Source: Lachnospiraceae bacterium NE2001
Lineage (GTDB): Bacteria; Bacillota; Clostridia; Lachnospirales; Lachnospiraceae
Direction of reading: 5' to 3'
DNA length: 64,000 nucleotides
Assembly (NCBI GenBank): GCA_900110635.1
Contig: FOEK01000010.1
Coordinates: 1 to 64,000, forward strand
The position numbers were made by a program, and so were the translations under genes. Shown piece by piece: positions 2,031 through 22,523 of the stretch; the first letter of the stretch is position 1; every line of letters starts with the position of its first letter. The notes under the pieces are model-generated. The model worked only from the letters and a program-made list of their open reading frames with translations, ran no database searches and was not told the origin of the DNA.

Positions 2031-2093
2031 GCAACATTTGTAAAGAAAATCGCAAGATATGAAAAGTATTTGCAAAAGACTTTATGTTAATAT
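2031..2093 (+). promoter_or_regulatory. Pentose-regulon operator (21-bp direct repeat) and promoter of GH43 gene
   Basis: Half-site 1 GCAACATTTGTAAA (2031-2044) and half-site 2 GCAAGATATGAAAAG (2052-2066) are spaced exactly 21 bp. Half-site 2 runs into the -35 position, which reads AGTATT instead of TTGACA. A -10-like TAATAT is at 2088-2093. The same arrangement occurs at 3183, 15481 and 22462. The lack of a -35 hexamer suggests activation by an AraC-type protein. Confidence 0.75.
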
Positions 2094-2146
2094 GACTGTG
2101 TATAAGAATGTGAAGACGCCGTAGGCGTACTGGAAAGAGGGTTATT

Positions 2147-3130
2147 ATGAGGGAGAATGAAAGAAAGCCGCTTGTAACAAATATTTTTACAGCGGATCCA
2201 TCAGCACACGTATTTGATGGTAAGATTTACATCTATCCATCTCACGATATGGATATCGAGATGGAAGAGGATGATGACGGTGAGCAGTACAGAATGGAGG
2301 ATTACCATGTCCTTTCTATGGATTCGTTGGATAGTCCTTGCGTAGATAATGGACTTGCACTTCACGAAAAGGACGTGCCTTGGGTTTCACGTCAGATGTG
2401 GGCTCCAGATGCTGTTAAGGTAAATGGGAAATATTATCTTGTATTTCCAGCTAAGGATAAGGACGATATCTTTAGAATTGGTGTAGCTGTATCAGATTCA
2501 CCTGTTGGACCATTTGTTGCTCAGGAGAATTATATTCAGGGAAGCTATAGTATAGATCCAGCTGTATTTGCAGACGATGATGGACGTATTTACTGCTATA
2601 ATGGTGGACTTTGGGGTGGTCAGCTTGAAATGTGGCAGTCAGGAAGCTTCAATCCTGATGAACCTCGTCCAGAGGGCGACGCTAAGAGCCTTGGACCACT
2701 GTTTGCAGAGTTTACAGAGGATATGACAGCATTTAAAGAAGCGCCAAAGATGATTGAGATTCTTGATGAGGATGGAACTCCAATCAAGGCTGGTGATGAG
2801 GATAGAAGATACTTTGAGGGACCTTGGGTTCATAAGTTTAATGGAAAGTACTATCTGTCATACTCAACAGGTACAACACATTATCTTTGCTATGCTGAAG
2901 GTGATAGTCCTGCTGGACCATTTACATATAAGGGCAGACTAATGGAGCCAGTAATTGGCTGGACAACCCATCATTCTATTGTTGAGATCGAAGGTGAGTG
3001 GTATCTGTTCTATCATGATAGCGAGTTCTCAGAGGGTTGTTCACATAAGAGAACTGTTAAGTATACAAAGCTCAGTATTGCTGAGGATGGTACTATTGAG
3101 AAGATTATCCCTTATGATCATAAAAACTAG
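2147..3130 (+). CDS. Glycoside hydrolase family 43, beta-xylosidase/arabinofuranosidase type
   Basis: Predicted inverting glycosidase acting on short xylan or arabinan fragments in the cytoplasm: 327 aa, no signal peptide, so the substrate must be imported. The three GH43 acidic residues are visible: the base Asp17 in FTADPSAH, the Asp137 in SIDPAVFADDDG, and the acid Glu224 in YFEGPW. Blade motifs such as GKYYL recur. It is a single catalytic domain without a binding module. RBS AAGAGG precedes ATG 2147. The upstream operator matches those of the pentose operons, which links this gene to arabinose/xylose use. Specificity (xylosidase, arabinofuranosidase or both) cannot be read from sequence. 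Confidence 0.87.
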   Translation: MRENERKPLVTNIFTADPSAHVFDGKIYIYPSHDMDIEMEEDDDGEQYRMEDYHVLSMDSLDSPCVDNGLALHEKDVPWVSRQMWAPDAVKVNGKYYLVFPAKDKDDIFRIGVAVSDSPVGPFVAQENYIQGSYSIDPAVFADDDGRIYCYNGGLWGGQLEMWQSGSFNPDEPRPEGDAKSLGPLFAEFTEDMTAFKEAPKMIEILDEDGTPIKAGDEDRRYFEGPWVHKFNGKYYLSYSTGTTHYLCYAEGDSPAGPFTYKGRLMEPVIGWTTHHSIVEIEGEWYLFYHDSEFSEGCSHKRTVKYTKLSIAEDGTIEKIIPYDHKN

Positions 3131-3182
3131 GGCTAAAAAGACAGAAACTTTATATAATTGACATTATTGTCATTAAATGTGA

Positions 3183-3244
3183 GCAACTTTTGTAAACAAC
3201 ATGACAATATTTGAAAAGTTTTTCTGAAAAACCTGTGTTACTAT
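3183..3244 (+). promoter_or_regulatory. Pentose-regulon operator and promoter upstream of the kinase operon
   Basis: Half-site 1 GCAACTTTTGTAAA (3183-3196) and half-site 2 GACAATATTTGAAAAG (3203-3218) are offset by exactly 21 bp. The -35 position reads AAGTTT and the -10 is TACTAT (3239-3244). It is the best match to the copy at 15481. A transcript from here would start near 3251 and meets a strong terminator at 3376 before the kinase gene. Confidence 0.78.
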
Positions 3245-3250
3245 GGCATC

Positions 3251-3408
3251 AGTGAAGGAAATAAAATAGACATTTCAGTGAAGGTTAAAAGTATTTATAT
3301 GACAGGGGTGTTTTATATTTAAAAAGCTTTCGCTGGATATTTCCAAAACTGATTTTGATAAGTGTATAAAAGGGAAAACGAGGTTCTTTAGAACCTCGTT
3401 TTTCTTTG
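3251..3408 (+). ncRNA. Putative short regulated transcript or attenuated leader
   Basis: Between the operator promoter (start near 3251) and the terminator at 3376-3408 lies about 150 nt without a convincing gene. Possible tiny frames include GTG 3280, about 14 codons, without a clear ribosome site. Either this is a leader with transcription attenuation in front of the kinase operon, or it yields a free pentose-induced small RNA. I see no known riboswitch class. Confidence 0.4.
3376..3408 (+). terminator. Strong intrinsic terminator upstream of the kinase operon
   Basis: Perfect 11-bp stem AAACGAGGTTC (3376-3386) / GAACCTCGTTT (3391-3401), TTTA loop, then TTTCTTT. It lies between a pentose-type promoter and the first gene of the operon at 3600. 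Confidence 0.85.
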
Positions 3409-3599
3409 TATTAATGTACTTCCTAGTAGTTGTATTTAATAGTAAAAAAACACACTAAATAAAGAAAAATATTTATTTTCTTAGCATAAGACTGATGATA
3501 AAATACTGTATTAGTATTGATAATAATATGCCTTCCCCTTGAGTGGAAGGTACCCCGAAGGGGCGGATGAGGTGAAATAAAATCGGGAGGATTAGTGAA
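3409..3599 (+). other. AT-rich spacer before the kinase gene
   Basis: This stretch has no gene. It is very AT-rich, with several TATAAT-like sequences (TAAAAT near 3499-3504, GATAAT near 3519) but no good -35 partner. It holds the repeat at 3531-3574 and a good RBS (GGGAGG near 3585-3590) for the ATG at 3600. A second promoter for the operon may lie here. Confidence 0.4.
3531..3574 (+). repeat. Dispersed intergenic repeat, CCTTCC-hairpin family, copy 1
   Basis: Two small hairpins, CCTTCC...GGAAGG (3531-3550) and CCCC-GAA-GGGG (3553-3563), followed by GGATGAGGTG. Related copies are at 5204-5238 and 18115-18158, all just ahead of genes of the pentose locus. Confidence 0.7.
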
Positions 3600-5201
3600 A
3601 TGAGTGTTAAAGAGATTATTGAGTCAGGAAAAACTGCGATAGGTATAGAATTTGGTTCTACCAGAATTAAAGCTGTACTTGTTGATGAGAGCGGAAAGCC
3701 TCTTGCACAGGGCGGCCACGGCTGGGAGAATCAGTTTGAAAATGGCGTCTGGACCTACAGCCTTGATATGATCTGGGATGGTCTTCAGGATGCTTACGCA
3801 GATCTGCTTAAGAACGTTAAAGAGCAGTACGATGCAGTGATCAAGACAACTGGTGCTATTGGCTTCAGCGCTATGATGCACGGTTATATGGCATTTAATG
3901 AAGGCGGGGAGCTTCTTGTTCCTTTTAGAACCTGGAGAAATACCATCACTGAGCAGGCTGCAAAGGAACTGACTCAGGAGTTTGGTTTCAATATTCCTCA
4001 GAGATGGAGTATTGCTCATCTTCACCAGGCAATCCTTAATAAAGAAGAGCATATAAGTGACATTTCATTCTTTACCACATTAGCTGGTTATATTCATTGG
4101 CAGCTGTCTGGCGAGAAGGTGCTGGGAGTGGGCGACGCTTCTGGTATGTTCCCTATTGACAGCAAGACCAGAAACTACAATGAAGAATATCTTGATAAGT
4201 ATGATAAGATACTTATGTCGAAGGGTATTACCTGGAATATCAGAGGCATTCTCCCTAAGGTGAGACTTGCTGGTGAGTCTGCTGGAACTCTTACAGCTGA
4301 AGGTGCTGCAAAGCTTGATGTCAGTGGAAATCTTGAGGCAGGTATTCCTATGTGTCCTCCAGAGGGTGACGCTGGTACGGGAATGGTTGCAACAAATAGT
4401 GTTGCAGTTCGTACTGGAAATGTATCTGCTGGTACCTCTATCTTCGCAATGGTTGTTATGGAGCACGCGCTCAACTCGCTTCACGAGGAGATAGATGTTG
4501 TTACGACTCCTGTTGGTGATGATGTGGCTATGGTTCACTGCAACAACTGTACATCAGATATAAATGCGTGGGCAAATATATTTAAACAGTATAGCGAGGC
4601 TATTGGCGCTCCTGTTGATACGGATAAGCTATATACAACCTTATTTACTGCAGCACTGGATGGTGCTCCTGACTGTGGCGGCCTTATGGGCTTCAACTAT
4701 TTCTCGGGTGAGCCAGTTACAGGCTTTGACGAGGGTAGACCAGTATTTGCTCGTAAGGTAAATGCTGATTTCACATTTGCCAACTTTATGAGACTTCATC
4801 TTTATTCAGCAGTCAGCACACTTAAGGTTGGTCTGGATATTCTTCTTAGAGACGAAGGCGTAAAGGTTGATAAGCTCTTTGGACACGGCGGATTCTTTAA
4901 GACCAAGGAGGTTGGCCAGAGAATTATGTCTGCTGCAACTGGCGGTCCTATCACTGTTATGGAGACAGCTGGTGAGGGTGGTGCCTGGGGAATGGCAGTG
5001 CTTGCGCTCTATCTTATGAAGACAGGCGGAGATGTTCTTGGTTCAGAGTCACTGGCAGATTTCCTTAATGGAACAATCTTTGGTGGCGAAGAAGGAACAA
5101 CAATTACTGCAAGTGAAGAAGAGATAAAGGGCTTTGATGACTTTATGAAGACCTTCACCTCAGCTTACGCACTTGAGCAGTCTGCAATTAATACACTCTA
5201 A
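3600..5201 (+). CDS. araB: FGGY-family carbohydrate kinase, probable L-ribulokinase
   Basis: Predicted to phosphorylate a ketopentose with ATP. Length 533 aa, typical of the FGGY family. The N-terminal ATPase fold begins with GIEFGSTRIKAVLVD (phosphate-1 type loop), MMHGYMAF corresponds to the sugar-binding region, GDAGTGMVA is the catalytic Asp region, and GEGGAWGMA near the C-terminus is the adenosine motif. It is followed 66 bp later by AraD, so L-ribulose is the likely substrate (inference). A separate, clearer xylulokinase lies at 19782, which also argues that this one is not XylB. It differs enough from classical AraB that the symbol is tentative. RBS GGGAGG is 9-10 bases before ATG 3600. 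Confidence 0.78.
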   Translation: MSVKEIIESGKTAIGIEFGSTRIKAVLVDESGKPLAQGGHGWENQFENGVWTYSLDMIWDGLQDAYADLLKNVKEQYDAVIKTTGAIGFSAMMHGYMAFNEGGELLVPFRTWRNTITEQAAKELTQEFGFNIPQRWSIAHLHQAILNKEEHISDISFFTTLAGYIHWQLSGEKVLGVGDASGMFPIDSKTRNYNEEYLDKYDKILMSKGITWNIRGILPKVRLAGESAGTLTAEGAAKLDVSGNLEAGIPMCPPEGDAGTGMVATNSVAVRTGNVSAGTSIFAMVVMEHALNSLHEEIDVVTTPVGDDVAMVHCNNCTSDINAWANIFKQYSEAIGAPVDTDKLYTTLFTAALDGAPDCGGLMGFNYFSGEPVTGFDEGRPVFARKVNADFTFANFMRLHLYSAVSTLKVGLDILLRDEGVKVDKLFGHGGFFKTKEVGQRIMSAATGGPITVMETAGEGGAWGMAVLALYLMKTGGDVLGSESLADFLNGTIFGGEEGTTITASEEEIKGFDDFMKTFTSAYALEQSAINTL

Positions 5202-5203
5202 AA

Positions 5204-5238
5204 GGCTTCCCCTTGAGGGAAAGCTGGCTGATGAGGTG
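5204..5238 (+). repeat. Dispersed intergenic repeat, CCTTCC-hairpin family, copy 2
   Basis: A shorter copy: GGCTTCC...GGGAAAGCT hairpin followed by GGCTGATGAGGTG, lying between the kinase stop and the araD start. It lacks the second GGGG hairpin of copies 1 and 3. Confidence 0.65.
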
Positions 5239-5267
5239 TTATATAATATACATAATAGGAGAAAATC

Positions 5268-5963: not shown

Positions 5964-5969
5964 AAAAGC

Positions 5970-5987
5970 TGTCACGTTTCTGTGACA
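5970..5987 (+). promoter_or_regulatory. Inverted repeat between araD and yesN
   Basis: TGTCAC (5970-5975) and GTGACA (5982-5987) with a 6-nt spacer, in the 39-bp gap. It has no T-run, so it is not a terminator. It could be an intercistronic stem-loop or an operator. A comparable TGTCA/TGACA palindrome is at 27345. Confidence 0.4.
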
Positions 5988-6002
5988 ACTTTGTGAGGTT
6001 AC

Positions 6003-7709
6003 ATGATTAAAGTTTTTTTAGTTGAAGATGAATATGCGATCCGCGAAGGAATTAAGAAATCCGTAAATTGGGAAGCCAACGGCTACTCACTTGTGGGTGA
6101 AGCGGGAGATGGTGAAATGGCATTTCCAAAGATCATCCGTGAGAAGCCGGACATCCTGATTACGGATATTCGTATGCCCTTTATGGATGGACTCGAGCTG
6201 TCACGTCTAGTGAAGAAGGAGATTCCAAATATCAAGATAGTTGTTTTAAGTGGTTATGATGATTTTAACTACGCGAAGCAGGCTATCTCTATTGGTGTGG
6301 AGGAATATATTCTGAAGCCAGTTTCTGGCGAGACTCTGCTTGCAGAGCTGGGCAAGATAGCCAGTGCCATAAATGCTGAGCGTCAGGACGAGCTGGCAAA
6401 GGAAAAGTATCTTCAGGATATGGAGGAGATAAGAACTCTGGCAAGACAGAAGTTTATCCACGACATGATAGACGGAAAGCTGTCTATGCAGGAGTCCCTT
6501 GAGCAGGGGCGTGATCTGGGTATAGATATTACGGCTGCCTGCTATTCCATAACGCTGTTTCAGACATTTCCCAAGAATCAAAATGATCATGATTCCACGG
6601 AGTATTCGGGTATAAATGAAGAGATATATAGCCGTATCAAGGAGATAGTTATTGATTCGGAGAGGGTATATATATATGAACAGGTTGGTGATGTAATCTG
6701 TTTTCTTCAGAAGGCTGATTCCTATGAGGAAATGGATGAGATAACCACACTATGTGTTGAGAGCATAGAGAAGATAATGTCTGAATATGCTGATTTTATA
6801 TATTTTATCTCTATTGGAAAACCAGTGGAACGGATCAGGGATGTAAATAATTCCTACCGAAATGCCAGTCGGCGATTTGCCGAAAGGTATATGCTGGATG
6901 AGAGCACTGTATTTTATAACAAGGATACAGAGCCGGAGCAGAAAAGAATCGAGAGGCTGCGCGAGACTATAGCAGCAGAAAAGAACAGCTCTGAGGATAT
7001 AGATATTGCAAGCCTTGATATCAATAAGCTGGATATCAGTGGCATAGATATAAAGATGGTTTCCCAGAAGACCATATTTCATTTTCTTAGAAATGGTACT
7101 CTGACTGAGGTTGACGATCTGGTGGATGAGTACTTTGCAAGTCTCGGTGAGGATGCGCTGAAGTCAATGATGCTCCGTCAGTATGTTCTGATGGAATCGC
7201 TCCTGAGTGCGCTGGCATTTTTAGATAGTCTGGGAGTGTCCAAAGATAAGGATTCTGAGATACTTGGAGAATTAAAAAATCCGGTGAGCTATGTTGATAC
7301 GGTAGAACAGGCCAGGGATTATATCTCTTCACTGCTAAGCAGAATGATCGAATATAGAAATCAGGTTTCTGATAAGAAGTATACGGAGATCATTGATAAG
7401 GCAAGGGATTTTATCCAGGAGAACTATCAGAACGAAGATATGTCGCTCCAGCTGGTTGCATCCTATGTAAATGTCAGTTCCAATCATTTCAGCGCCATAT
7501 TCAGAAAAGAGACTGGAGAGACATTTATAGATTATCTTACAAGAGTTCGTATGGATAATGCTATGGATCTGCTCACCTGTACCGCTATGAAGACATCGGA
7601 AATCGGTTTTGAGGTGGGCTACAAGGATCCTCATTATTTTAGTTATATTTTCAAGAAGACCATAGGTATGTCGCCGAAGGAATACCGTCGGATGAAGAAA
7701 GATTCGTAG
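6003..7709 (+). CDS. yesN: YesN-type response regulator with AraC DNA-binding domain
   Basis: A 568-aa cytoplasmic response regulator. Residues 1-120 form a receiver domain (acidic pair near 9-10, phospho-acceptor Asp55 in ILITDIRMP, Lys in YILKPV). A roughly 320-residue middle region follows, and two AraC-type helix-turn-helix motifs lie at about 465-565 (SLQLVASYVNVSSNHFS and TSEIGFEVGYKDPHYF). AraC dimers commonly bind direct repeats about 21 bp apart, exactly the element found upstream of four promoters here, so this protein is the prime candidate for controlling the pentose regulon (inference). It is encoded with its partner kinase and a sugar-binding lipoprotein. A weak GTGAGG serves as RBS. 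Confidence 0.92.
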   Translation: MIKVFLVEDEYAIREGIKKSVNWEANGYSLVGEAGDGEMAFPKIIREKPDILITDIRMPFMDGLELSRLVKKEIPNIKIVVLSGYDDFNYAKQAISIGVEEYILKPVSGETLLAELGKIASAINAERQDELAKEKYLQDMEEIRTLARQKFIHDMIDGKLSMQESLEQGRDLGIDITAACYSITLFQTFPKNQNDHDSTEYSGINEEIYSRIKEIVIDSERVYIYEQVGDVICFLQKADSYEEMDEITTLCVESIEKIMSEYADFIYFISIGKPVERIRDVNNSYRNASRRFAERYMLDESTVFYNKDTEPEQKRIERLRETIAAEKNSSEDIDIASLDINKLDISGIDIKMVSQKTIFHFLRNGTLTEVDDLVDEYFASLGEDALKSMMLRQYVLMESLLSALAFLDSLGVSKDKDSEILGELKNPVSYVDTVEQARDYISSLLSRMIEYRNQVSDKKYTEIIDKARDFIQENYQNEDMSLQLVASYVNVSSNHFSAIFRKETGETFIDYLTRVRMDNAMDLLTCTAMKTSEIGFEVGYKDPHYFSYIFKKTIGMSPKEYRRMKKDS

Positions 7710-7771
7710 TGTTTCTTTCGGACGAAAATGTATATCAGATCTATGATCCTATATATGAGGCAGAGTAAGTA

Positions 7772-9226
7772 TTGAGTCAGGAAAAGAAGAGAAGCAGCAA
7801 GATTCAGAACAAACTGATAAAGTATATCTGGATATGTGTCATACCTCTTATTGTCCTTTTCAGCATCGCTATCATAAGGCTGTATGGATTCTATCAGGAG
7901 TATGATCTGCTGGTTCGAAATATCACGAGTGCAAATGAATACAATATGAGCTTCCGCGAGTCCATGGATGAGATGATGTATCGGATCATTACCGGCTCTG
8001 CTAACTGGACTGATGCTGAGGAAAAGCTGGAGGGCGAGGATCCCAAGGCACTTATCAGTGATGCCACGAAGCATTTTGAGGAGCTTAGAGATAAGACCAC
8101 TGAGGAAAATGTCCGCAGTGATCTTGATGCGTTGATAAAGCTTCTGGGCATTTTGGACGAGCGAGTAGATGATATTCTGGAAAATGTTGAAGAGGGCGGT
8201 CACTACGACGAGAATATGGAAATGCTGGATATGAACATCCGTACTCTGACCTCGCTGATTCAGGAGGATATCCAGAAATATATCTATGATGAAGCTCACA
8301 ATATGGAGATGCTTCGTCGGCAGGTTGCAGCCAGCCTTCTTTCGGCTATAAGGATCATGGTGCTTGTTCTCATCGCCATTCTGGTTGCCATATATTTCCT
8401 ATCAAAGCGACTTTCCCAGAGAATAACTGAACCTATTACTGAACTGGTCGGCATGACCGAGAAGTTTGCAGGCGGTGATTTTACTGTTTCATATCATCCT
8501 GATAGAGATGATGAAATGCGTACTCTGGCAGAGAGCTTTAACAGCATGGTTAAAGAGATAGAAACTCTGGTGGAGGATATTCATCGTGAGCAGGAAAATG
8601 CAAAGGATGCCGAGCTTCGACTCCTGCAGGAACAGATCAATCCACATTTCCTATATAATACACTGGATGCTATTATCTGGATGACGGAGGCTGGAGAGAA
8701 CCAGAAGGCTATCCAGGTTATCCAGGAATTATCAAGCTTCTTCCGAATCTCCCTTAGTAAAGGTGAAAGTGAGATCACCATTAAGAACGAAAGGGAACAC
8801 GTAAAGAATTATCTCGAGATACAAAGGTATCGCTACCAGGATATTCTAGATTATGAGATTGATATCGACGAGGATATTCTCGATTATCATATCCAGAAAT
8901 TGACGTTACAGCCTATAGTGGAAAATGCCTTGTACCACGGTATCAAGAATAAGCGTGGTGGTGGTATGATCCGAGTTGAAGGCTGTCTCGATAATGATGA
9001 TATTATCTTCAGGATTAAGGATACCGGAATCGGTATGAACGAAGAAGAACTTGAGCGACTTCGTGGCCTTATCTCAGGTGATATAGTCCTGGATGAACAA
9101 AGGGGCTTTGGAATGGCCAACGTTCAAAAACGAATCGAAATGATGTACGGAGCGGGTTACGGCATTACAGTGGAAAGCACCTACAACGAAGGCACCACCG
9201 TCACTGTCCGCATCCCCCAGAAATAA
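7772..9226 (+). CDS. yesM: YesM-type sensor histidine kinase
   Basis: A 484-aa membrane kinase predicted to phosphorylate the YesN protein next to it. Hydrophobic segments lie at about residues 18-40 and 187-210, enclosing an extracytoplasmic domain of about 145 residues. A HAMP linker follows (EPITELVGMTEKFAGGDF), then the His_kinase motif QINPHFLYNTLDA with the phospho-His, and an HATPase domain (N-box VENALYHGIKNK, DTGIGM, GFGMANV). The start is TTG 7772; GAGG about 12 bases upstream is the only ribosome site seen, so the exact start is uncertain. No ligand-binding family is evident in the outer domain, so the neighbouring binding lipoprotein at 9307 may supply the sugar signal. Confidence 0.9.
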   Translation: MSQEKKRSSKIQNKLIKYIWICVIPLIVLFSIAIIRLYGFYQEYDLLVRNITSANEYNMSFRESMDEMMYRIITGSANWTDAEEKLEGEDPKALISDATKHFEELRDKTTEENVRSDLDALIKLLGILDERVDDILENVEEGGHYDENMEMLDMNIRTLTSLIQEDIQKYIYDEAHNMEMLRRQVAASLLSAIRIMVLVLIAILVAIYFLSKRLSQRITEPITELVGMTEKFAGGDFTVSYHPDRDDEMRTLAESFNSMVKEIETLVEDIHREQENAKDAELRLLQEQINPHFLYNTLDAIIWMTEAGENQKAIQVIQELSSFFRISLSKGESEITIKNEREHVKNYLEIQRYRYQDILDYEIDIDEDILDYHIQKLTLQPIVENALYHGIKNKRGGGMIRVEGCLDNDDIIFRIKDTGIGMNEEELERLRGLISGDIVLDEQRGFGMANVQKRIEMMYGAGYGITVESTYNEGTTVTVRIPQK

Positions 9227-9282
9227 TGTGTGAGTGGGGTCTGTCCCCATTGCACATAGGTCTGTCCCCAATTGCACATTTT
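9227..9282 (+). repeat. GTGCA/GGGGACAG dispersed repeat, copy 1
   Basis: A 56-bp intergenic element containing two GTCTGTCCCC units separated by TTGCACATAG and ending in TTGCACATTTT. Its reverse complement matches the element at 51193-51252. It opens an artificial reading-frame extension upstream of the lipoprotein gene at 9307. Confidence 0.8.
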
Positions 9283-9306
9283 GCATCAGATAATAAAGTA
9301 GAGTAT

Positions 9307-10395
9307 ATGAAGAAAATAAAAGTCTTGAAAAATAGAATAGTGGCTAGGGTTATTGCAACAGGAATACTAGTTGCTGGACTGGCTGGATTTTCTGGCTGTG
9401 GAGCGGTGGAAGAGGAAGAAGCCTCGACTCAGGAGCAGGCGAAGCTTATTACTGTGGGCTTTTCACAGCTTGGAGCGGAGTCTGACTGGCGTGTAGCAAA
9501 TACGGCATCAATACAGAACAGTCTGACGAGACAGAATGGTTTTGACCTGATGTTTGATGATGCGCAGCAGAAGCAGGATAAGCAGTTCCTTGCTATAAGA
9601 AACTTTACCCAGCAGGAGGTGGACTGTATCGTTCTTGCACCTGTTATGGAGACCGGCTGGGATACAGTGCTTCAGGAAGCTAAAGATGCTGGTATTCCGG
9701 TTGTGGTAGTTGACAGGCAGGTTAAGGTTACCGACACGGCGCTTGTTACGGCCTGGGTTGGATCTGATTTTACGAAGGAAGGCAAGATCGCCTGTGAATG
9801 GCTTAAGAGCTACACCGAGACAAAGGGGATTGAGCCTGGCGACTTAAATATAGTAGATATTCAGGGCACCCTTGGTGCCACGGCTCAGATTGGCCGCACT
9901 AACGGCATAGTTGAAGCAAGTGCAAAGTATGGCTGGAACCTGGTGGCTCAGGTGCCTGCAGATTATACGCAGGCAAAGGGCAAGGAGGTTATGGCCAATC
10001 TTCTGGCTGAACATCCTGATATAAATGTAGTGTATGCTGAAAATGATAACGAGGCCATTGGTGCCATCGAAGCAATAGAAGAGGCTGGCAAGAAGGCTGG
10101 AGCGGATATCTCTAAAGGCGAGATTCTGGTTATATCATTTGATGCTGCTCATTCTGGTCTCAGCCAGGTGCTGGAAGGAAAGATAGCTCTCGATGTTGAG
10201 TGTAATCCGCTTCAGGGCGAAGAGGTCGAAAAACTCATAAAAGCTGTAAAGAATGGAGAAGAGTACAACAAATATACCTACGTTAAAGAGAGTGCTTTCT
10301 CCTTCGATGATACAGTTAAAAGTGTCACTATAAACGATGAGTCTTATGATATAACGCCGCTCACCGAGAATATCCTTAACTCCCGCGAGTACTAA
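9307..10395 (+). CDS. YtfQ-like sugar-binding lipoprotein, probable accessory sensor of YesM/YesN
   Basis: A 362-aa type-I periplasmic-binding-protein fold (RbsB/YtfQ group), lipid-anchored: basic MKKIKVLKNR, a hydrophobic stretch, and lipobox GFSGC. The mature part follows E. coli YtfQ closely (remembered comparison): TVGFSQLGAESDW, LAPVMETGWD, DRQVKV, YAENDNEAIGAI. An upstream in-frame start at 9226 exists only because of the repeat at 9227-9282; the lipoprotein signal fixes the start at ATG 9307. It lies directly after yesM, while a second YtfQ-like protein (10623) heads the transporter genes. By analogy with XylFII-LytS/YesN of Clostridium beijerinckii, it may present sugar to the kinase rather than feed the transporter (inference). 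Confidence 0.83.
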   Translation: MKKIKVLKNRIVARVIATGILVAGLAGFSGCGAVEEEEASTQEQAKLITVGFSQLGAESDWRVANTASIQNSLTRQNGFDLMFDDAQQKQDKQFLAIRNFTQQEVDCIVLAPVMETGWDTVLQEAKDAGIPVVVVDRQVKVTDTALVTAWVGSDFTKEGKIACEWLKSYTETKGIEPGDLNIVDIQGTLGATAQIGRTNGIVEASAKYGWNLVAQVPADYTQAKGKEVMANLLAEHPDINVVYAENDNEAIGAIEAIEEAGKKAGADISKGEILVISFDAAHSGLSQVLEGKIALDVECNPLQGEEVEKLIKAVKNGEEYNKYTYVKESAFSFDDTVKSVTINDESYDITPLTENILNSREY

Positions 10396-10415
10396 TATGG
10401 GAAGGTGTGACAAAA

Positions 10416-10494
10416 TATGACATACGTCATAAAATATCTAACATAAAATAAAATATCGAAAAAAAATAAAATAAAGAATAAATATTTGAAAAAA
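10416..10494 (+). promoter_or_regulatory. Possible control region of the transporter operon
   Basis: The 227-bp gap before 10623 is extremely AT-rich. It holds a perfect palindrome TATGAC-ATAC-GTCATA (10416-10431) and one sequence like the pentose half-site, ATATTTGAAAAAAG (10482-10494). No second half-site lies 21 bp away. TATAAA occurs about 24 bp downstream of the half-site. A leader hairpin (CCTTAGGT with ACCTAGG near 10566-10588) precedes the RBS. The assignment is weak. Confidence 0.4.
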
Positions 10495-10622
10495 GTTAAG
10501 TGTTTATTCCGTATAAATACCCTCTACACTTTGGTATATTCGTATCATCAAGAAAACGAAAACATCCTTAGGTCTCAGGAAACCTAGGGAAGAGTAAACA
10601 AAGTGAAATGGAGGGTTTTTTC

Positions 10623-14374: not shown

Positions 14375-14376
14375 GA

Positions 14377-15438: not shown

Positions 15439-15480
15439 AAAATACTTTTGCCAAAATATACAAAAGATTTTAGTTAAGTA

Positions 15481-15542
15481 GCAATATTTGTAAACATTTT
15501 GACAACATTTGAGAAGTTTAAGCAAGTCCCTTGTGTTATGAT
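15481..15542 (+). promoter_or_regulatory. Pentose-regulon operator and promoter of the transaldolase operon
   Basis: Half-site 1 GCAATATTTGTAAA (15481-15494) and half-site 2 GACAACATTTGAGAAG (15501-15516) are offset by exactly 21 bp. The -35 position reads AAGTTT and the -10 is TATGAT (15537-15542). The leader to ATG 15616 is about 65 nt. Confidence 0.8.
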
Positions 15543-15615
15543 GATACTGCATTAGTGAAGTTTTTATAGCAGTTATTAACACAAGGGACAAATATTTTAA
15601 GCGGAGGATAAGAAA

Positions 15616-16269
15616 ATGAAGTTTTTTATTGACACAGCAAATGTAGACGACATTAGAAAGGCTAATGACATGGGGGTTATTTGTGGTGTTACTACAAACC
15701 CATCACTCATTGCAAAGGAAGGCAGAGATTTTAACGAGGTTATCAAGGAGATCACATCTATCGTTGATGGACCAATCAGTGGCGAGGTTAAGGCTACTAC
15801 AGTAGATGCTGAAGGAATGATCAAGGAAGGCCGCGAGATCGCAGCTATTCATCCAAATATGATCGTTAAGATTCCTATGACAGTAGAAGGACTTAAGGCA
15901 GTTAAGGTTCTTGCTGCAGAGGGCATCAAGACAAATGTTACACTTATCTTTTCAGCTAATCAGGCACTTCTTGCTGCAAGAGCAGGTGCAACATATGTAT
16001 CACCATTCCTCGGAAGACTTGATGATATCAGTATGCCAGGTATCAACCTTATTGAGGACATCGTTCAGATCTTTGATAACTATGGTCTTGAGACAGAGAT
16101 CATCGCTGCATCTATCAGAAATACAGTACACGTAACAGAGTGTGCTCTTGCTGGTGCTGATATCGCTACAGTACCTTATGCTGTAATCGAGCAGATGACA
16201 AAGCATCCACTTACAGATCAGGGTATTGAGAAGTTCCAGGCAGACTACAAGAAGGTATTTGGCGAGTAA
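15616..16269 (+). CDS. tal: Transaldolase (TalC/MipB-type, short form)
   Basis: Transfers dihydroxyacetone units in the non-oxidative pentose phosphate pathway. Length 217 aa, the short subfamily that includes fructose-6-phosphate aldolases. [13 protein letters not shown] at the N-terminus, [13 protein letters not shown] near 24-36, and the Schiff-base lysine (about Lys85) in IVKIPMT are all present. GGAGG precedes ATG 15616. It is followed by both halves of transketolase, and its operator ties it to the pentose regulon, so transaldolase activity is more likely than aldolase activity. Confidence 0.93.
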
Positions 16270-16329
16270 ACATTGTTCTATTGTTAGTTTATTTCAAAAC
16301 AAATAAATCGATTAAAAAGGATAATAATA

Positions 16330-17157
16330 ATGAATCAGGAAAGAAAAGCAGAACTTAAGAAACAGGCAAATGAGGTTCGTAAGGGTATCGTTACAGCTGT
16401 TCATAGTGCAAAGTCTGGTCATCCAGGCGGATCACTTTCTGCAGCAGACATTCTTACTTACCTTTATTTTGAGGAGATGAATATTGATCCTCAGGATCCG
16501 AAGAAGGCTGACAGAGACAGACTTGTTCTGTCAAAGGGCCACATCGCTCCTGCGTTATATTCAGTACTTTCTCACAGAGGTTATTTTCCAACCTCTGATT
16601 TAACAACCCTCCGTCACACGGGTTCTTACCTGCAGGGGCATCCAGATATGAAGCATATCCCTGGCGTTGATATGTCATCTGGATCCCTGGGGCAAGGCCT
16701 ATCAGCTGCAGTAGGTATGGCTCTGAATGCCAAGCTTGATGGCTCTGATTACAGAGTATATGCAGTATGTGGTGATGGCGAGATTCAGGAAGGACAGATC
16801 TGGGAGGCATCTATGTTTGCAGCTTCCAGAAATCTTGATAACCTTACAGTAATCGTTGATAATAACAATCTTCAGATTGATGGATCTATTGATCAGGTAT
16901 GCTCACCTTATCCAATCGATGAGAAGTTTGCAGCATTTGGCTTCCATGTAATCAACATAGATGGTCACAACTTCGATGAGATCGAGGCTGCATTTAATGA
17001 GGCTAAGGCTACAAAGGGTCAGCCTACAGCAATCATTGCTAAGACTACAAAGGGCAAGGGTGTTTCATTTATGGAAAACCAGTGCGGATGGCATGGAAAG
17101 GCTCCAAATGATGAAGAGTTTGAGCAGGCATTAAAGGATTTGGAGGTGACTGAATAA
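16330..17157 (+). CDS. tktA: Transketolase, N-terminal subunit
   Basis: A 275-aa thiamine-diphosphate-binding half of a split transketolase. The ThDP motif GDGEIQEGQIWEA followed by the NNN region (DNNNLQIDG), together with SAKSGHPGGSLSAADI and SKGHIAPALYSVL, are visible. Its stop codon overlaps the ATG of the C-terminal subunit by one base (TAATG), which should give equal amounts of both. Split transketolases are common in clostridia and archaea. It moves two-carbon units between xylulose 5-phosphate and aldose phosphates. Confidence 0.94.
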   Translation: MNQERKAELKKQANEVRKGIVTAVHSAKSGHPGGSLSAADILTYLYFEEMNIDPQDPKKADRDRLVLSKGHIAPALYSVLSHRGYFPTSDLTTLRHTGSYLQGHPDMKHIPGVDMSSGSLGQGLSAAVGMALNAKLDGSDYRVYAVCGDGEIQEGQIWEASMFAASRNLDNLTVIVDNNNLQIDGSIDQVCSPYPIDEKFAAFGFHVINIDGHNFDEIEAAFNEAKATKGQPTAIIAKTTKGKGVSFMENQCGWHGKAPNDEEFEQALKDLEVTE

Positions 17158-18095
17158 TGGCAGACGTAGTAAAGATTGCAACTAGAGATAGTTATGGAAA
17201 TGCACTCGTAGAGCTTGGACAGGAGAAGGATAACGTAGTTGTTCTTGATGCTGACCTTGCAGCTGCTACAAAGACAGGTACATTTAAGAAGGCATTTCCT
17301 GAAAGACATATAGACTGCGGTATCGCAGAGGCAGATATGATGGGTATCGCTGCTGGTCTTGCTACTTGTGGCAAGGTTCCATTTGCAAGTACATTTGCAA
17401 TGTTTGCAGCAGGACGTGCTTTCGAGCAGGTTCGTAACTCAATCGGATATCCACATCTCAATGTAAAGATTGGTGCTACACACGCAGGTATCTCTGTAGG
17501 TGAGGACGGTGCTTCTCATCAGTGTAACGAGGATATAGCTCTTATGAGAACTATTCCTGGTATGACAATCATCAATCCTTCAGATGATGTTGAGGCTAAG
17601 GCTGCTGTTAAGGCTGCATACGAGATTGACGGTCCTGTATATATGAGATTTGGTCGTCTTGCAGTTCCTGTAATAAATGACAATGCTGATTACAAGTTCG
17701 AAGTTGGTAAGGGCGTTCTTCTTAAGGACGGTAGTGATATCACGATCATCGCAACAGGACTTGAGGTTGGTGAGTCACTTAAGGCTGCTGAGATGCTCGA
17801 GGCTGACGGAGTTAGCGTAAGAGTTATCAATATGCATACGATCAAGCCACTTGATAAGGATATTGTTGTTAAGGCTGCTCAGGAGACAAAGAAGATATTC
17901 ACAGCTGAGGAGCATTCAATAATCGGTGGTCTTGGAAGTGCAGTTGCTGAGGTTCTTGCAGAAGAGTGTCAGACACCTCTTTACAGAATTGGTGTTAGAG
18001 ATACATTTGGTGAGTCTGGTCCTGCAGTTGAGCTTCTTAAGAAGTATAAGCTTGATGCAGATGGCATCTATGAGCAGGTTAAGGCTAATCTTTAA
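17157..18095 (+). CDS. tktB: Transketolase, C-terminal subunit
   Basis: A 312-aa partner of the preceding gene, carrying the pyrimidine-binding domain (VVLDADLAAATKTG, the FPERHIDCGIAEADMMGIAAG segment with the conserved Glu) and the C-terminal transketolase domain (AEEHSIIGGLGSAVAEVL). Its ATG lies in the TAATG junction. It works as a heterodimer or heterotetramer with the N-terminal subunit. Confidence 0.94.
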   Translation: MADVVKIATRDSYGNALVELGQEKDNVVVLDADLAAATKTGTFKKAFPERHIDCGIAEADMMGIAAGLATCGKVPFASTFAMFAAGRAFEQVRNSIGYPHLNVKIGATHAGISVGEDGASHQCNEDIALMRTIPGMTIINPSDDVEAKAAVKAAYEIDGPVYMRFGRLAVPVINDNADYKFEVGKGVLLKDGSDITIIATGLEVGESLKAAEMLEADGVSVRVINMHTIKPLDKDIVVKAAQETKKIFTAEEHSIIGGLGSAVAEVLAEECQTPLYRIGVRDTFGESGPAVELLKKYKLDADGIYEQVKANL

Positions 18096-18114
18096 TATTT
18101 TAATAAAATATAAT

Positions 18115-18158
18115 CCTTCCCATTAATGGGAAGGTGCCCTGAAGGGGCTATGAGAGGT
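18115..18158 (+). repeat. Dispersed intergenic repeat, CCTTCC-hairpin family, copy 3
   Basis: CCTTCCCATT...GGGAAGG hairpin followed by a GCCCTGAAGGGGC hairpin and TATGAGAGGT. Same two-hairpin plan as 3531-3574. It lies between tktB and the isomerase gene. Confidence 0.68.
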
Positions 18159-18187
18159 ATATATAATATAAAGGAGGTTATTGTTTT

Positions 18188-19669
18188 ATGAATCATTTAC
18201 CAGAGGTTAAGATGGGAATTGTTGCAGTTAGCCGTGACTGTTTCCCAATGAGTCTTTCAGAGAGCAGAAGAAAGGCAGTTGTTGCTTCTTACAAGGAGAA
18301 GTATGGTGACATCTATGAGTGTCCAGTAACAGTTGAGAACGAGGTTGATATGAGAAAGGCTCTTGCTGATATTAATGCAGCAGGCGTTAATGCTCTTGTA
18401 GTATATCTTGGAAACTTCGGTCCAGAGTCAAGTGAGATCCTTCTTATTAAGGAGTTCCAGGGACCTGCAGCTGTTATTGCAGCAGCTGAGGAGTCAGGCG
18501 ACAGCCTTCTTGATGACAGAGGAGATGCTTACTGTGGTATGCTTAATGCAAGCTACAACCTGAAGCTTCGTAATCTTCGTGCATACATTCCTGAGGTACC
18601 AGTTGGTGACGCAGAAGAGTGTGCAGATATGATCAAAGAGTTCGTATCAATTGCAAGAGTTAGAATCGCACTTAGCGATCTTAAGATCATAAGCTTTGGT
18701 CCTCGTCCACAGGACTTCCTTGCATGTAACGCTCCTATCAAGCAGCTCTACAATCTCGGTGTTGAGATCGAAGAGAACTCAGAGCTTGACCTTTTCGAAG
18801 CATTTAACAAGCATGAGGGTGATGAGAGAATCCCTTCAGTTGTTGATGATATGGCAGCTGAGCTCGGTGCTGGTAACAAGAAGCCTGAGATCCTTTCAAG
18901 ACTTGCTCAGTATGAGCTTACACTTCGTGACTGGATCGATGCTCATAAGGGTAGCAGAAGCAATGTTATCATAGCTGGTAAGTGCTGGCCTGCATTCCAG
19001 ACACAGTTCAAGTGTGTACCTTGCTACGTAAACAGCCGTCTTGCTAAGGATGGTATTCCTGTATCTTGTGAGGTTGATATCTATGGAGCTCTTTCAGAGT
19101 ACATTGGTCAGCTTGTAAGTGAGGATACAGTTACACTTCTTGATATCAACAATACAGTTCCAAAGGATATGTACAATGATGAGATCAAGGGCAAGTTCGA
19201 TTATGACTATAAGCTTACAGATACATTTATGGGCTTCCACTGTGGAAATACAGCTACAGACAAGCTTGCATTCTGTGAGATGAGAAACCAGAAGATCATG
19301 GCTCGTTCACTTCCAGTTGAGGTTACAAACGGAACACTTGAGGGAGATCTTATCCCAGGTGAGGCTACAATCTTCAGACTTCAGAGTACATCAGACGGAA
19401 AGCTTCGTGCTTACGTTGCAGAAGGAGAGATCCTTCCAGTTGCTACAAGATCATTTGGTGCAATCGGTATCTTCGCTATTCCTGAGATGGGACGTTTCTA
19501 TCGTCACGTTCTTGTTCAGAAGAACTATCCACATCACGCAGCTATTACATTCCATCACAATGGAAAGGCTCTCTATGATGTATTTAAGTATCTTGGCGTA
19601 AGATTCGATGAGATTGATTACAATCATCCAGCTGGCGTAAGATATAAGTCAGAAAATCCATTCGCTTAA
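18188..19669 (+). CDS. L-fucose/L-arabinose isomerase family protein (probable pentose isomerase)
   Basis: A 493-aa cytoplasmic Mn-dependent aldose-ketose isomerase candidate, related to the fucose-isomerase-like group rather than classical AraA. Candidate metal and active-site segments are CEVDIYGALS (Glu), LLDINNT (Asp), GFHCGNTA (His) and TFHHNGKALYD (His). It resides with AraD, the ribulokinase-like kinase and xylulokinase, and the window has no other arabinose or xylose isomerase. I therefore infer that it makes L-ribulose from L-arabinose, possibly with activity on other sugars. AAGGAGG is 10 bases upstream of ATG 18188. Substrate is unproven. Confidence 0.72.
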   Translation: MNHLPEVKMGIVAVSRDCFPMSLSESRRKAVVASYKEKYGDIYECPVTVENEVDMRKALADINAAGVNALVVYLGNFGPESSEILLIKEFQGPAAVIAAAEESGDSLLDDRGDAYCGMLNASYNLKLRNLRAYIPEVPVGDAEECADMIKEFVSIARVRIALSDLKIISFGPRPQDFLACNAPIKQLYNLGVEIEENSELDLFEAFNKHEGDERIPSVVDDMAAELGAGNKKPEILSRLAQYELTLRDWIDAHKGSRSNVIIAGKCWPAFQTQFKCVPCYVNSRLAKDGIPVSCEVDIYGALSEYIGQLVSEDTVTLLDINNTVPKDMYNDEIKGKFDYDYKLTDTFMGFHCGNTATDKLAFCEMRNQKIMARSLPVEVTNGTLEGDLIPGEATIFRLQSTSDGKLRAYVAEGEILPVATRSFGAIGIFAIPEMGRFYRHVLVQKNYPHHAAITFHHNGKALYDVFKYLGVRFDEIDYNHPAGVRYKSENPFA

Positions 19670-19700
19670 GCGTTTAGTTAAAAAACATTTAACAGGGGCT

Positions 19701-19740
19701 GGGGTAGGTTTTGTCGCCTGACAGAGCCTACCCCTTTCTA
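19701..19740 (+). terminator. Long intercistronic hairpin before xylB
   Basis: A 15-bp stem (19701-19715 with 19720-19734, a few G-T pairs) with a GCCT loop, followed by TTTCT. The T-run is short, so it may attenuate rather than end transcription into xylB. Confidence 0.6.
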
Positions 19741-19781
19741 CATATAGGAAATATGTCAAAAGGTTTTTACGGAGGTTTAGT

Positions 19782-21239
19782 ATGTTTATTGGAGTAGATT
19801 TAGGTACATCGGCAGTTAAGCTGCTTGCTATGAGTAACGATGGTGAGATACTTAAGACTGTATCAGTTGAGTATCCTATCAGCTTCCCTAAGTCAGGCTG
19901 GTCAGAGCAGAATCCAGAGGACTGGTACAAGGGAACTATGGAAGGTATCGGAAAGCTTCTTGCTGATATGCCAGATAAGACAGTAGATGGTATCGGTATC
20001 GGCGGACAGATGCACGGCCTTGTTATATTAGATGAAAATGATGACGTTATCCGTCCAGCTATTCTTTGGAATGACGGACGTACAACAAAAGAGACAGATT
20101 ATCTCAATACAGTAATTGGTAAGGATAAGCTGTCCGAGTATACAGGAAATATTGCATTTGCAGGCTTCACAGCACCTAAGGTTCTGTGGGTTAAGGACAA
20201 TGAGCCAGATAACTTTGCAAAGATAAAGAAGCTTATGCTTCCTAAGGATTATATAGTATACAAGTTTACTGGATCATATGTATCAGATTATTCAGATGCT
20301 TCAGGTATGCTCCTGATGGATGTTAAGAATAAATGCTGGTCCAAGGAAATGCTTGAAATATGTGGAATCTCAGATGTTGAGATGCCAGAACTTCACGAGA
20401 GTTTTGATGTAGTTGGAGAGGTTAAACCAGAGATAGCTGCAGAGCTTGGTATTACAGGAACACTTAAGGTTGTTGCTGGTGCTGGAGATAATGCAGCAGC
20501 TGCTGTAGGTACAGGTACAGTTGGTGCAGGTGGATGTAACCTGTCACTTGGTACTTCCGGAACACTCTTTATTTCAAATGATAAGTTCTCTGTAGATGAC
20601 AAGAACTCACTTCATTCATTTGCTCACGCTGATGGTGGTTTCCATCTTATGGGATGTATGCTTTCAGCTGCTTCCTGCAATAAGTGGTGGATGGATGAGA
20701 TCCTTCGTGATACAGATTATGCTGCTAACCAGGCTGGAATCGAAAAGCTTGGCGAGAACAATGTATTCTTTATGCCATATCTTATGGGCGAGAGATCACC
20801 TCATAATAATCCGCTTGTAAGAGCTGGATTCCTTGGTATGAGTATGGATACAACAAGAGAGGATATGGTTCAGGCAGTTCTTGAGGGAGTTGCATTTGGA
20901 CTTAGAGATTCTATGGAAGTTGCCAGAAGCCTTGGTATCAAGATTGAAGTATCCAACATTTGCGGCGGTGGTGCTAAGAGCCCACTTTGGAGAAAGATCA
21001 TTGCAAATGTAATGAACGTAAGACTTGAGATTCAGAAGAATGATGAGGGACCTGCTCTTGGTGGAGCAATCCTTGCAGCAGTTGGCTGTGGCAGATATTC
21101 AGATGTTATAACAGCTGCTAAGAGTCTTGTGAATGTTGTTGAGACAGTTGAACCTGATGCTGAGCTGGTTGCAAAGTATGAAGAGAAATATCAGCAGTTT
21201 AAGAAACTATATCCTACGGTAAAGGGTCTGTATAGCTAA
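19782..21239 (+). CDS. xylB: Xylulokinase
   Basis: Phosphorylates D-xylulose to D-xylulose 5-phosphate. Length 485 aa, typical XylB. It has the FGGY N-terminal motif GVDLGTSAVKLL, the substrate loop GGQMHGLV and ILWNDGRTT, catalytic Asp in AGAGDNAAAAVGTG, and the C-terminal GGGAKSPLWRKI signature. RBS GGAGG lies eight bases before ATG 19782. The matching xylose isomerase was not found in the window, so it may be elsewhere, or the isomerase at 18188 may serve more than one pentose. Confidence 0.94.
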   Translation: MFIGVDLGTSAVKLLAMSNDGEILKTVSVEYPISFPKSGWSEQNPEDWYKGTMEGIGKLLADMPDKTVDGIGIGGQMHGLVILDENDDVIRPAILWNDGRTTKETDYLNTVIGKDKLSEYTGNIAFAGFTAPKVLWVKDNEPDNFAKIKKLMLPKDYIVYKFTGSYVSDYSDASGMLLMDVKNKCWSKEMLEICGISDVEMPELHESFDVVGEVKPEIAAELGITGTLKVVAGAGDNAAAAVGTGTVGAGGCNLSLGTSGTLFISNDKFSVDDKNSLHSFAHADGGFHLMGCMLSAASCNKWWMDEILRDTDYAANQAGIEKLGENNVFFMPYLMGERSPHNNPLVRAGFLGMSMDTTREDMVQAVLEGVAFGLRDSMEVARSLGIKIEVSNICGGGAKSPLWRKIIANVMNVRLEIQKNDEGPALGGAILAAVGCGRYSDVITAAKSLVNVVETVEPDAELVAKYEEKYQQFKKLYPTVKGLYS

Positions 21240-21267
21240 AAGTATAGTATGACGGAGGTGTAAGCTA

Positions 21268-22335
21268 GTGAAGAAAGAGGTATTTGGGGAGACCAAAACA
21301 GGAAGCACAGTTACTGCCTATACTCTTGAGAATAAGAACGGTATATCTGCAACAATCATCGATTTCGGTGCAACTGTTACAAAACTGCTTGTTCCAGATA
21401 AAACAGGAGTAGCAAGAGATATTCAGCTTGGTTACGACTCAGTTGCTGGCTATGAGGACGGAGAGTGCTTCTTCGGTGCAATAATAGGAAGAAATGCAAA
21501 CCGTATCAAGGATGGCCGCGTATCTATTGATAGAGTTGTATATCAGATGGAGCAAAATGATAATGAGAATAATCTTCACAGTGGGCCAAATGGTGTAGAT
21601 AAGAAGATGTGGACATATCTTCCAAACAGTGATACGGATGCTGACTCGGATTCAGTAACACTTATCTGCAAGTCAAATGATAAAGAACAGGGCCTTCCTG
21701 GAAATGTTACTATGACTGTTACTTTTTCATTGAATGATGATAATGAGTTTAAGATTACCTATGATGCGGTATCAGATATGAAGACGGTTATAAATATGAC
21801 AAGTCATATGTACTTCAATCTGAATGGCCATTATAAGGGAAATGTAGAAAATCATTTTGTTACATTAGATAGTGATTACTATAATCCGGTTATAGATTTC
21901 AAGGCTATTCCTACTGAGGAAAATGCTCCGGTAGCTGAAACGGTGTTCGACTTCAGAAATCCTAAGCAGATAGGAGATGAGGTAAACTCCAGCGAGCTTC
22001 AGCTTGAGTACGTTGGCGGTTATGATCATAACTTTATTATAAAGGGATCAACCGGAGAGGTTAGACATTTTGCTACTGTTTATGCAGAGGAAAGCGGAAT
22101 AGTTATGGATCTCTTCTCAGACCAGACAGGTACCCAGTTCTATTCAGGAAACTGCATAGGCGACCAGAAGGGTAAGGGCGGTTTCGATTATCACAATCGC
22201 TCGGGTTTATGTCTTGAACCACAGTATATACCAAACGCTATGAACTTTATTCCTGAAGACAGTGTGGATTCGCCAATCTTTGAGGCGGATCAGCACTATC
22301 ACACAGAGAGCATCTACAAGTTCTCAACCAAATAG
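21268..22335 (+). CDS. galM: Aldose 1-epimerase (mutarotase)
   Basis: Interconverts alpha and beta anomers of aldoses. Length 355 aa. Family motifs are visible: GATVTKLLVPD, GRNANRIKDGR, NLHSGPNGVDKKMW with the catalytic His region, TSHMYFNLNG, and YDHNFI; a late Glu lies in LCLEPQ. The start is GTG 21268 behind GGAGGTG. It is the last gene of the transaldolase operon, ahead of a strong terminator. In this setting it probably equilibrates arabinose or xylose anomers after import or hydrolysis. Confidence 0.93.
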   Translation: MKKEVFGETKTGSTVTAYTLENKNGISATIIDFGATVTKLLVPDKTGVARDIQLGYDSVAGYEDGECFFGAIIGRNANRIKDGRVSIDRVVYQMEQNDNENNLHSGPNGVDKKMWTYLPNSDTDADSDSVTLICKSNDKEQGLPGNVTMTVTFSLNDDNEFKITYDAVSDMKTVINMTSHMYFNLNGHYKGNVENHFVTLDSDYYNPVIDFKAIPTEENAPVAETVFDFRNPKQIGDEVNSSELQLEYVGGYDHNFIIKGSTGEVRHFATVYAEESGIVMDLFSDQTGTQFYSGNCIGDQKGKGGFDYHNRSGLCLEPQYIPNAMNFIPEDSVDSPIFEADQHYHTESIYKFSTK

Positions 22336-22337
22336 CA

Positions 22338-22380
22338 AAAATCACCAATCGGGGACGTTTCTCGATTGGTGATTTTTTTA
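22338..22380 (+). terminator. Terminator of the transaldolase-galM operon
   Basis: A 14-bp stem (AAAATCACCAATCG with CGATTGGTGATTTT) and a run of seven T. Confidence 0.92.
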
Positions 22381-22461
22381 ATATGTTACAAATATATTAC
22401 ACAATATGTACAATAGAAGGGGATAAAAAATGCTGTTTTTTTGGTAAATATATCAAAAAAA

Positions 22462-22523
22462 GCACATTTTGTTAAAAGTATGGCAATATTTGTTAAGTAT
22501 TTTTGTGCATTTTTTACTATAAT
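22462..22523 (+). promoter_or_regulatory. Pentose-regulon operator and promoter of the CUT1 importer
   Basis: Half-site 1 GCACATTTTGTTAAA (22462-22476) and half-site 2 GCAATATTTGTTAAG (22483-22497) are offset by exactly 21 bp. The -35 position reads AAGTAT and the -10 is a perfect TATAAT (22518-22523). This is the fourth member of the operator set. Confidence 0.75.

Follow-up and report, generated by a model that had tools for sequence, protein, structure and literature searches.

A direct-repeat operator with a predicted AraC-type reader and its possible coupling to a small RNA in Lachnospiraceae bacterium NE2001

Introduction

In Escherichia coli, the half-sites araI1 and araI2 are spaced by 21 base pairs (bp) and overlap the -35 region. 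AraC binds these two adjacent half-sites at araBAD and recruits RNA polymerase in the presence of the sugar (PMC4760080). Here, four operators (S1 to S4) of a sugar regulon are described in a stretch of 64,000 nucleotides (nt) from Lachnospiraceae bacterium NE2001 (contig FOEK01000010.1, positions 1 to 64,000; "the window"), which are most likely read by an AraC-family protein encoded at 26268-27203. This system resembles E. coli AraC in combining a cupin sensor with a pair of AraC-type helix-turn-helix (HTH) motifs and in using two adjacent half-sites. Still, it differs in the half-site itself, in its glycosidase and CUT1 importer targets and in the protein, which misses the equivalog model for E. 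coli-type AraC (NCBIfam NF007860) with 63.6 bits against a cut-off of 208.

The hybrid two-component regulators of AraC type in Bacteroides have predicted direct repeats of 21 bp on average, interpreted as bound by two monomers that sit on the same DNA face (PMC3878776). The present operators are likewise 21-bp direct repeats; the Bacteroides regulators differ in being sensor-kinase fusions from another phylum with other motifs. Besides, AraPST and XylFII-LytS-YesN are known as three-component sugar systems. A further one, CuaDSR, comprises a response regulator, a kinase and a binding-protein sensor encoded near a transporter (PMC10384115). The genes at 6003-10395 of the window are of like make-up and apparently do not own the four operators. 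With regard to small RNAs, the sponge RNA RosA of Bacillus subtilis, which pairs with small RNAs, is under the control of a carbon-source regulator (PMC8216469). RosA is the nearest precedent known to us for the small-RNA coupling proposed below. The RNAs are different, activation is proposed here as opposed to repression by CcpA, and the sites described here also occur in mRNA leaders and 3' ends. Titles and abstract openings found by searching one open-licence library gave no description of this regulon or RNA, nor of such a small RNA in the group. The operator is a further representative of the AraC direct-repeat type, and the coupling to a small RNA is apparently new as far as this search extended.

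Operator Architecture and Specificity

A preliminary description of this DNA had reported four direct repeats with a spacing of exactly 21 bp, each followed by a -10 hexamer 26-27 bp after the second half-site. All four repeats and this distance were recovered, the hexamers being assigned by eye:

2031-2069, forward strand: operator S1, 21-bp direct repeat; -10 TAATAT at 2088-2093; upstream of the GH43 gene 2147-3130
3183-3221, forward strand: operator S2; -10 TACTAT at 3239-3244; upstream of a leader running into a hairpin at 3375-3402
15481-15519, forward strand: operator S3; -10 TATGAT at 15537-15542; upstream of the transaldolase gene (operon probably extending to 22335)
22462-22500, forward strand: operator S4; -10 TATAAT at 22518-22523; upstream of the CUT1 importer 22735-26167

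The same-direction half-sites and the fixed -10 distance bear out the earlier reading as AraC-type direct-repeat operators which overlap the -35 region and serve a sugar regulon. As S1 features GCAAGATATG and S4 GCACATTTTG in one half, the half-site consensus is looser than originally written.

Searching with the pattern CAAYATTTGTWAAN7RCAAYATTTGNNAAG at up to three mismatches yielded four matches in the window, all of them S1-S4, and none in 100 dinucleotide shuffles. In the complete genome of the strain (G000; 3,721,622 bases; G numbers denote genomes and L numbers fetched loci) five matches were obtained, four of which are S1-S4, and the reversed control gave none. Respacing the half-sites to 22 bp led to one unrelated match and lost all four operators. 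A motif matrix was built from 34 sites of other genomes, with the strain itself and its two closest relatives excluded, and ranked S1-S4 first in the window (scores of 43.3, 38.1, 35.3, and 31.5). The best non-overlapping position of the window scored 0.1 and an overlapping one 3.3, with a maximum of 5.0 in 4 Mb of random sequence. A comparison of 44 distinct sites gave a period of 21, with GCAA and the G six bases further nearly invariant. The G preceding the first CAA is kept in 42 of these sites though it is absent from the search pattern, and the -10 bases, equally outside the pattern, are conserved as well (T55 in 41, A56 in 39, A59 in 38, and T60 in 40 sites).

The fifth genomic match, C38:3709-3743 (L104), was excluded from matrix training and scored 27.2. 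It may be a further operator and target of the regulon, since it is intergenic and followed by TGATAGACT 26 bp on, the same distance as in S1-S4. The genes behind it encode a lipoprotein-like product lacking a Pfam match and a VWA-domain protein.

Probable Identity of the Regulator

Two readers of the operators had been considered before, with preference for the YesN regulator encoded at 6003 and the AraC protein at 26268 as the alternative. Co-occurrence, neighbourhood and distant homologues favor the latter, which is most likely the reader of S1-S4, binding being predicted from sequence:

26268-27203, reverse strand: AraC-family regulator with cupin sensor and two HTH motifs, the proposed reader of S1-S4 (Pfam, co-occurrence, distant homologues, structural model)

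The protein carries the two-HTH AraC domain at its C terminus (PF12833, 76.6 bits, cut-off 33.6) and a cupin sensor as in AraC (PF02311, 35.3 bits, cut-off 21.1). Its model, with a predicted local distance difference test score (pLDDT) of 85, contains a sensor resembling the sensor domains of AraC, RhaR, and BgaR at template modeling (TM) scores (target) of 0.51-0.68 as well as a two-HTH domain, and its best-ranked structural matches are full-length ToxT, Rns, and CsvR (TM about 0.4). The sequence GFSK..F.R.F, presumably part of the first recognition helix, does not vary among 18 aligned proteins. Genes of a V-type ATPase (27824-36372) adjoin the AraC gene.

In a genus set of 61 genomes (60 relatives and the strain itself), whose shared ancestry deprives the counts of independence, the motif occurs in 25 of 26 genomes with AraC and in 5 of 35 without it (15/15 and 1/18 at a completeness of at least 90%). 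For YesN, the corresponding figures are 29 of 37 and 1 of 24 (16/21 and 0/12); motif presence tracks AraC more closely. G040, the sole AraC-bearing genome missed by the pattern, apparently corresponds to L138, which features a matrix site of 28.4 upstream of GH3, and G014 possesses AraC and the motif without a YesN match. Among the genomes with YesN and without AraC, seven lack the motif and 5 of 12 have it; four of these five are only 58-80% complete, and in the remaining one (G057, 91%) the contig stops inside the CUT1 operon.

The neighbourhood of the sites points in the same direction. Within 30 kilobases of 63 sites, AraC alone was found 22 times, both regulators 10 times and YesN alone never. 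Where both loci could be read (14 relatives), they are separate in 12 and merged as in the window in G005 and G033. The separate form consists of one contig with YesN, kinase, sensor, and CUT2 lacking the motif and another, bearing it, with members of the set GH3, transaldolase, transketolase, isomerase, XylB, CUT1, and AraC. Conserved operators accompanying the YesN operon across the genus were looked for and not found: of 18 YesN loci that do not belong to the merged form, none has a pattern match at up to four mismatches, and their best matrix score is 10.0. The top scores of 18 AraC-type loci reach 32.6-53.2, mostly at training sites. Outside the genus, eight loci of AraC homologues were read, and the motif or a half-site adjoins the gene in five of the seven with 31-35% identity. 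The matrix scores beside these genes are 34.6 (G136), 28.3 (G075), 13.5 (L148), 10.3 (G115), and 5.1 (L146), the last equalling no more than the random peak. In addition, GH3 adjoins AraC in G115, L147, L148, and L149.

Several observations speak against this assignment. YesN itself correlates with the motif, and 31 of the 63 sites lie near neither regulator gene. In G055, a YesN locus has a weak matrix site (10.0) before its araB-like gene (L078:13004). The matrix never rises above 5 at three of the homologue loci, L132 (42% identity) as well as L147 and L149 (31-34%), and no operator was detected by matrix upstream of araC itself (best score -13.8).

As a separate observation, an intact operator at L077:3477 (G007) is directed into the 3' terminus of the AraC gene, with the CUT1 genes absent between them, and has the look of a deletion remnant.

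Regulon Targets and Likely Signal

Besides the CUT1 importer, the following genes stand behind the operators:

2147-3130, forward strand: GH43 glycosidase
15616-22335, forward strand: transaldolase, split transketolase, FucI_C-type isomerase, XylB, and aldose epimerase

The sequence downstream could be read for 55 matrix sites, some of which overlap or come from one genome read twice. These sites stand before SBP_CUT1 (19), GH3 (18), transaldolase (4), GH43 (4), araB-like genes (3), GalM (2), and XylB (1), and before none of these in four cases. The target gene of about 700 amino acids in relatives encodes GH3 with an Fn3-like domain (all eight tested). Since this is a usual shape of beta-xylosidases, xylosides appear to be the likelier signal than arabinose alone, and the regulon looks xyloside-centred. 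The pentose regulon of the preliminary description accordingly persists as a sugar regulon, with a weaker emphasis on arabinose, GH3 often being the first target in relatives.

The genome lacks matches to the AraA (PF02610) and XylA (TIGR02630) profiles, for which reason the FucI_C-type isomerase (18188-19669) may be the pentose isomerase of the regulon. No sequence relative of this protein was found in the PDB at E 0.001. The transketolase is split over two genes (16330-18095).

The S2 Leader and a Small-RNA-Like Gene

The leader behind S2 and the 3' end of the CUT1 operon contain the following elements:

3277-3308, forward strand: site complementary to a small RNA, comprising 26 nt (3277-3302) and CAGGGG (3303-3308), with predicted pairing to either side of hairpin 1 of the small RNA
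3375-3402, forward strand: terminator-like hairpin with T-rich tail, kept in two relatives (listed by the scan tool on the reverse strand only)
26176-26230, forward strand: 3' end of the CUT1 operon with a partial, weak small-RNA match GGTTAAAAGTATT, then a terminator-like hairpin

The S2 leader (3243-3412) has a folding z of -6.8 and ends in the hairpin with T-rich tail; two close relatives share this hairpin together with most of the leader. A riboswitch known to Rfam was rejected for the leaders, as only ribosomal and transfer RNAs reached the gathering score in positions 1-30000 of the window. Regarding a peptide encoded by the S2 RNA, inspection by eye in three genomes revealed frames of 7-8 codons and no ribosome site at the usual distance.

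When 61 genomes, 37 of them from the genus, were searched with the S2 leader, 25 had matches. Each of the 21 genus genomes among these matches at a second place with a block of 26-33 nt. The opposite strand of that place holds a compact gene-like unit, made up of the conserved sequence GCCCCCUG, a hairpin of 12 pairs, a linker without variation, and a terminator-like hairpin. This putative small RNA (about 4145-4262 of G000:C20 in the strain) features a stand-alone conserved fold with a terminator-like 3' hairpin, and RNAalifold assigned 27 pairs to 17 sequences, five of them changed on both sides. The gene occurs in 54 of the 61 genomes of the genus set, the best match outside the genus being 1.6e-4. 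It is present in all 26 genomes with AraC and in 28 of 35 without; as the latter mostly retain it, the small RNA should have further partners. Searching three of the loci against Rfam up to E 1 revealed no family at the gene and one unrelated weak match. No operator was found at the gene, the matrix nowhere scoring above 20 among the small-RNA loci fetched as far as L177. In 40 of 41 loci, which include several genomes read twice, the small RNA has a divergently oriented neighbour, a gene for a small AraC-type HTH protein (L160:3311-4051 of G000:C20 in the strain); the other locus is truncated by a contig end. This neighbouring gene may control the small RNA.

Predicted Pairing of Regulon Transcripts With the Small RNA

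The 26 nt of the S2 leader are complementary to the small-RNA linker; the complementarity skips a 25-nt hairpin exactly and continues with 6 nt to CCCCUG. Duplexfold energies overlap those of shuffles (-54.0 for the target and -57.5 for the best shuffle), and the gain upon cofolding was used for this reason. It amounts to -24.5 (z -3.9) in G000, -27.6 (z -6.6) in G005, and -25.0 (z -4.7) in G033 for the S2 RNAs and to -41.2 (z -6.9) for the GH3 leader of G012, matched in each case by none of 100 shuffles. A 23-nt pattern with up to three mismatches gave 61 rows in 61 genomes, counted here as 42 small-RNA genes and 19 others, with none in the reversed control. Fifteen of the 19 belong to the AraC regulon (near motif, AraC, or GH3 start), and the other four have three mismatches each. 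In some genomes, tandem copies in steps of 20-25 nt precede GH3, five in L175 and three in L087. At the CUT1 3' end, the sense site is found in 11 of 26 AraC genomes and the antisense site in none, with 4 of the 26 stretches shortened by contig ends. The potential of the S2 leader to pair with the small RNA is well supported. The S2 transcript would be sugar-induced and pair with the small RNA, which it perhaps titrates.

Other results weigh against this part of the explanation. The S2 form is known from three genomes only (G000, G005, and G033), and the hairpin of its RNA, considered without the terminator, has a z of -4.0 in the strain, -2.1 in G033, and 0.03 in G005. Duplexfold energy failed to split target from shuffles, as given above, and the leaders of S1, S3, and S4 show insignificant pairing, with shuffles at least as good in 8, 31, and 62 of 100 cases. 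At up to one mismatch, a site is missing from 12 of 18 GH3 leaders. At the CUT1 3' end, no site was found in 15 of 26 AraC genomes including G000, G005, and G033. In the strain itself, CUT1 3' end pairing is weak, being equalled by 3 of 100 shuffles, and an 11-nt core is absent at up to two mismatches. Some pairs of the small RNA are broken in single sequences, mostly in L153.

The YesN Locus and Candidate Separate Promoters

The merged locus holds three further elements:

6003-10395, forward strand: set of three-component type with the response regulator YesN, a histidine kinase, and a sensor related to periplasmic binding proteins; S1-S4 probably have another reader
10490-10545, forward strand: different, conserved promoter-like element before the CUT2 importer, reading TTTATTCCGTATAA from 10503 on; candidate target of YesN
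3430-3510, forward strand: stretch before the araB-like gene, candidate separate promoter with -10 TAAAAT at 3499-3504

In 18 sequences, the gene for the CUT2 binding protein is preceded by TAnTC(C/T)GTAT and, downstream thereof, TnTGnTATA, with columns mostly at least 90% or at least 70% conserved and one sequence reading CCGTTT. The CAAYATTTG repeat is absent from this place in all 18, and pairing of the CUT2 leader with the small RNA was matched or exceeded by 58 of 100 shuffles. By analogy with CuaDSR and AraPST, the element would be the expected promoter of a three-component sugar system and likely the target of YesN.

The stretch before the araB-like gene is partly common to eight genomes, some without the AraC motif there, at a mean column identity of 44%. 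Since motif-free relatives share it and a terminator-like hairpin intervenes, S2 is probably not the main promoter of the araB-like operon. For the same reasons, the autoregulated YesN operon of the preliminary description is doubtful; the hairpin at 3375-3402 separates S2 from the AraB-like gene at 3600. This gene (3600-5201) encodes an FGGY kinase beside AraD, which remains far under the cut-offs for ribulokinase and xylulokinase and is possibly a non-standard ribulokinase.

Proposed Mechanism and Alternatives

The best overall explanation, held with good confidence, combines operators of the AraC protein 26268 with sugar-induced transcripts that pair with the small RNA. A dimer would bind two same-direction half-sites (GCAAYATTTG..AA) two helical turns apart on one DNA face, the downstream half-site replacing the -35 box, and the AraC protein may recruit RNA polymerase. 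The presumed trigger of activation is a pentose or xyloside bound by the cupin domain. The predicted targets are GH43 (GH3 in relatives), transaldolase with the following genes (transketolase, isomerase, XylB), and the CUT1 importer. At S2, a transcript of about 150 nt would start near 3250 and end at the hairpin near 3402, including the 32-nt stretch complementary to the small RNA. Pairing of this RNA, and of the CUT1 3' end in relatives, with the small RNA would reduce the free amount of the latter, most likely by titration, and the GH3 leader of some relatives may be a direct target controlled by it. More tentatively, and at somewhat less than even chances, S2 could be a former GH3 promoter whose leader outlived the gene and now forms a free-standing, sugar-induced sponge RNA, which would pair with the small RNA on either side of a hairpin. 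In this reading, which takes in the further, at times tandem, copies at the GH3 leaders and CUT1 3' ends of relatives, pentose induction would rewire the entire target set of the small RNA.

Binding of all four sites by YesN together with autoregulation of its operon is highly improbable and was rejected as a reading on locus scan, co-occurrence, matrix scores, and distant homologues: the separate YesN loci are without clear sites, no site is close to YesN alone, the motif adjoins distant AraC homologues, and the CUT2 promoter has a different conserved element. A division between two regulators is moderately probable, with AraC acting at S1-S4 and YesN at the CUT2 and araB-like promoters, and S2 feeding only a short RNA. 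The separate CUT2 element, the partly common araB-like upstream stretch, and the terminator-like hairpin between S2 and the araB-like gene argue for it. Against it, the likeness of the CUT2 and araB-like promoters was judged by eye, the search for the element covered these promoters, and the araB-like alignment is of low identity. This division is compatible with the best overall explanation and is our picture of the locus.

Concerning the small-RNA match, a leftover repeat copy in place of a pairing site is unlikely. Tandem repeats in some leaders do look like slipped or mobile DNA; yet, the match omits precisely the small-RNA hairpin and resumes at CAGGGG, which makes DNA copying an unlikely source, several other leaders possess their own GGGG a few bases past the site (by eye), and the copies at the CUT1 3' end are in sense orientation only. 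A more serious competitor, though one given somewhat less than an even chance, regards the paired site as a control point at which the small RNA represses or exposes downstream translation, without titration. The last site lies close upstream of the GH3 start in L087 and L175. At S2, however, the terminator-like hairpin comes next with no usual-size gene between, and the site at the CUT1 3' end stands after the last gene.

Implications

The reassignment places a sugar regulon under a named regulator, which makes it testable. The site matrix is specific enough for the prediction of targets in related, mostly uncultured Lachnospiraceae. Moreover, a pairing rule which involves both sides of a hairpin would connect a transcription-factor regulon with a small RNA that has no Rfam match.

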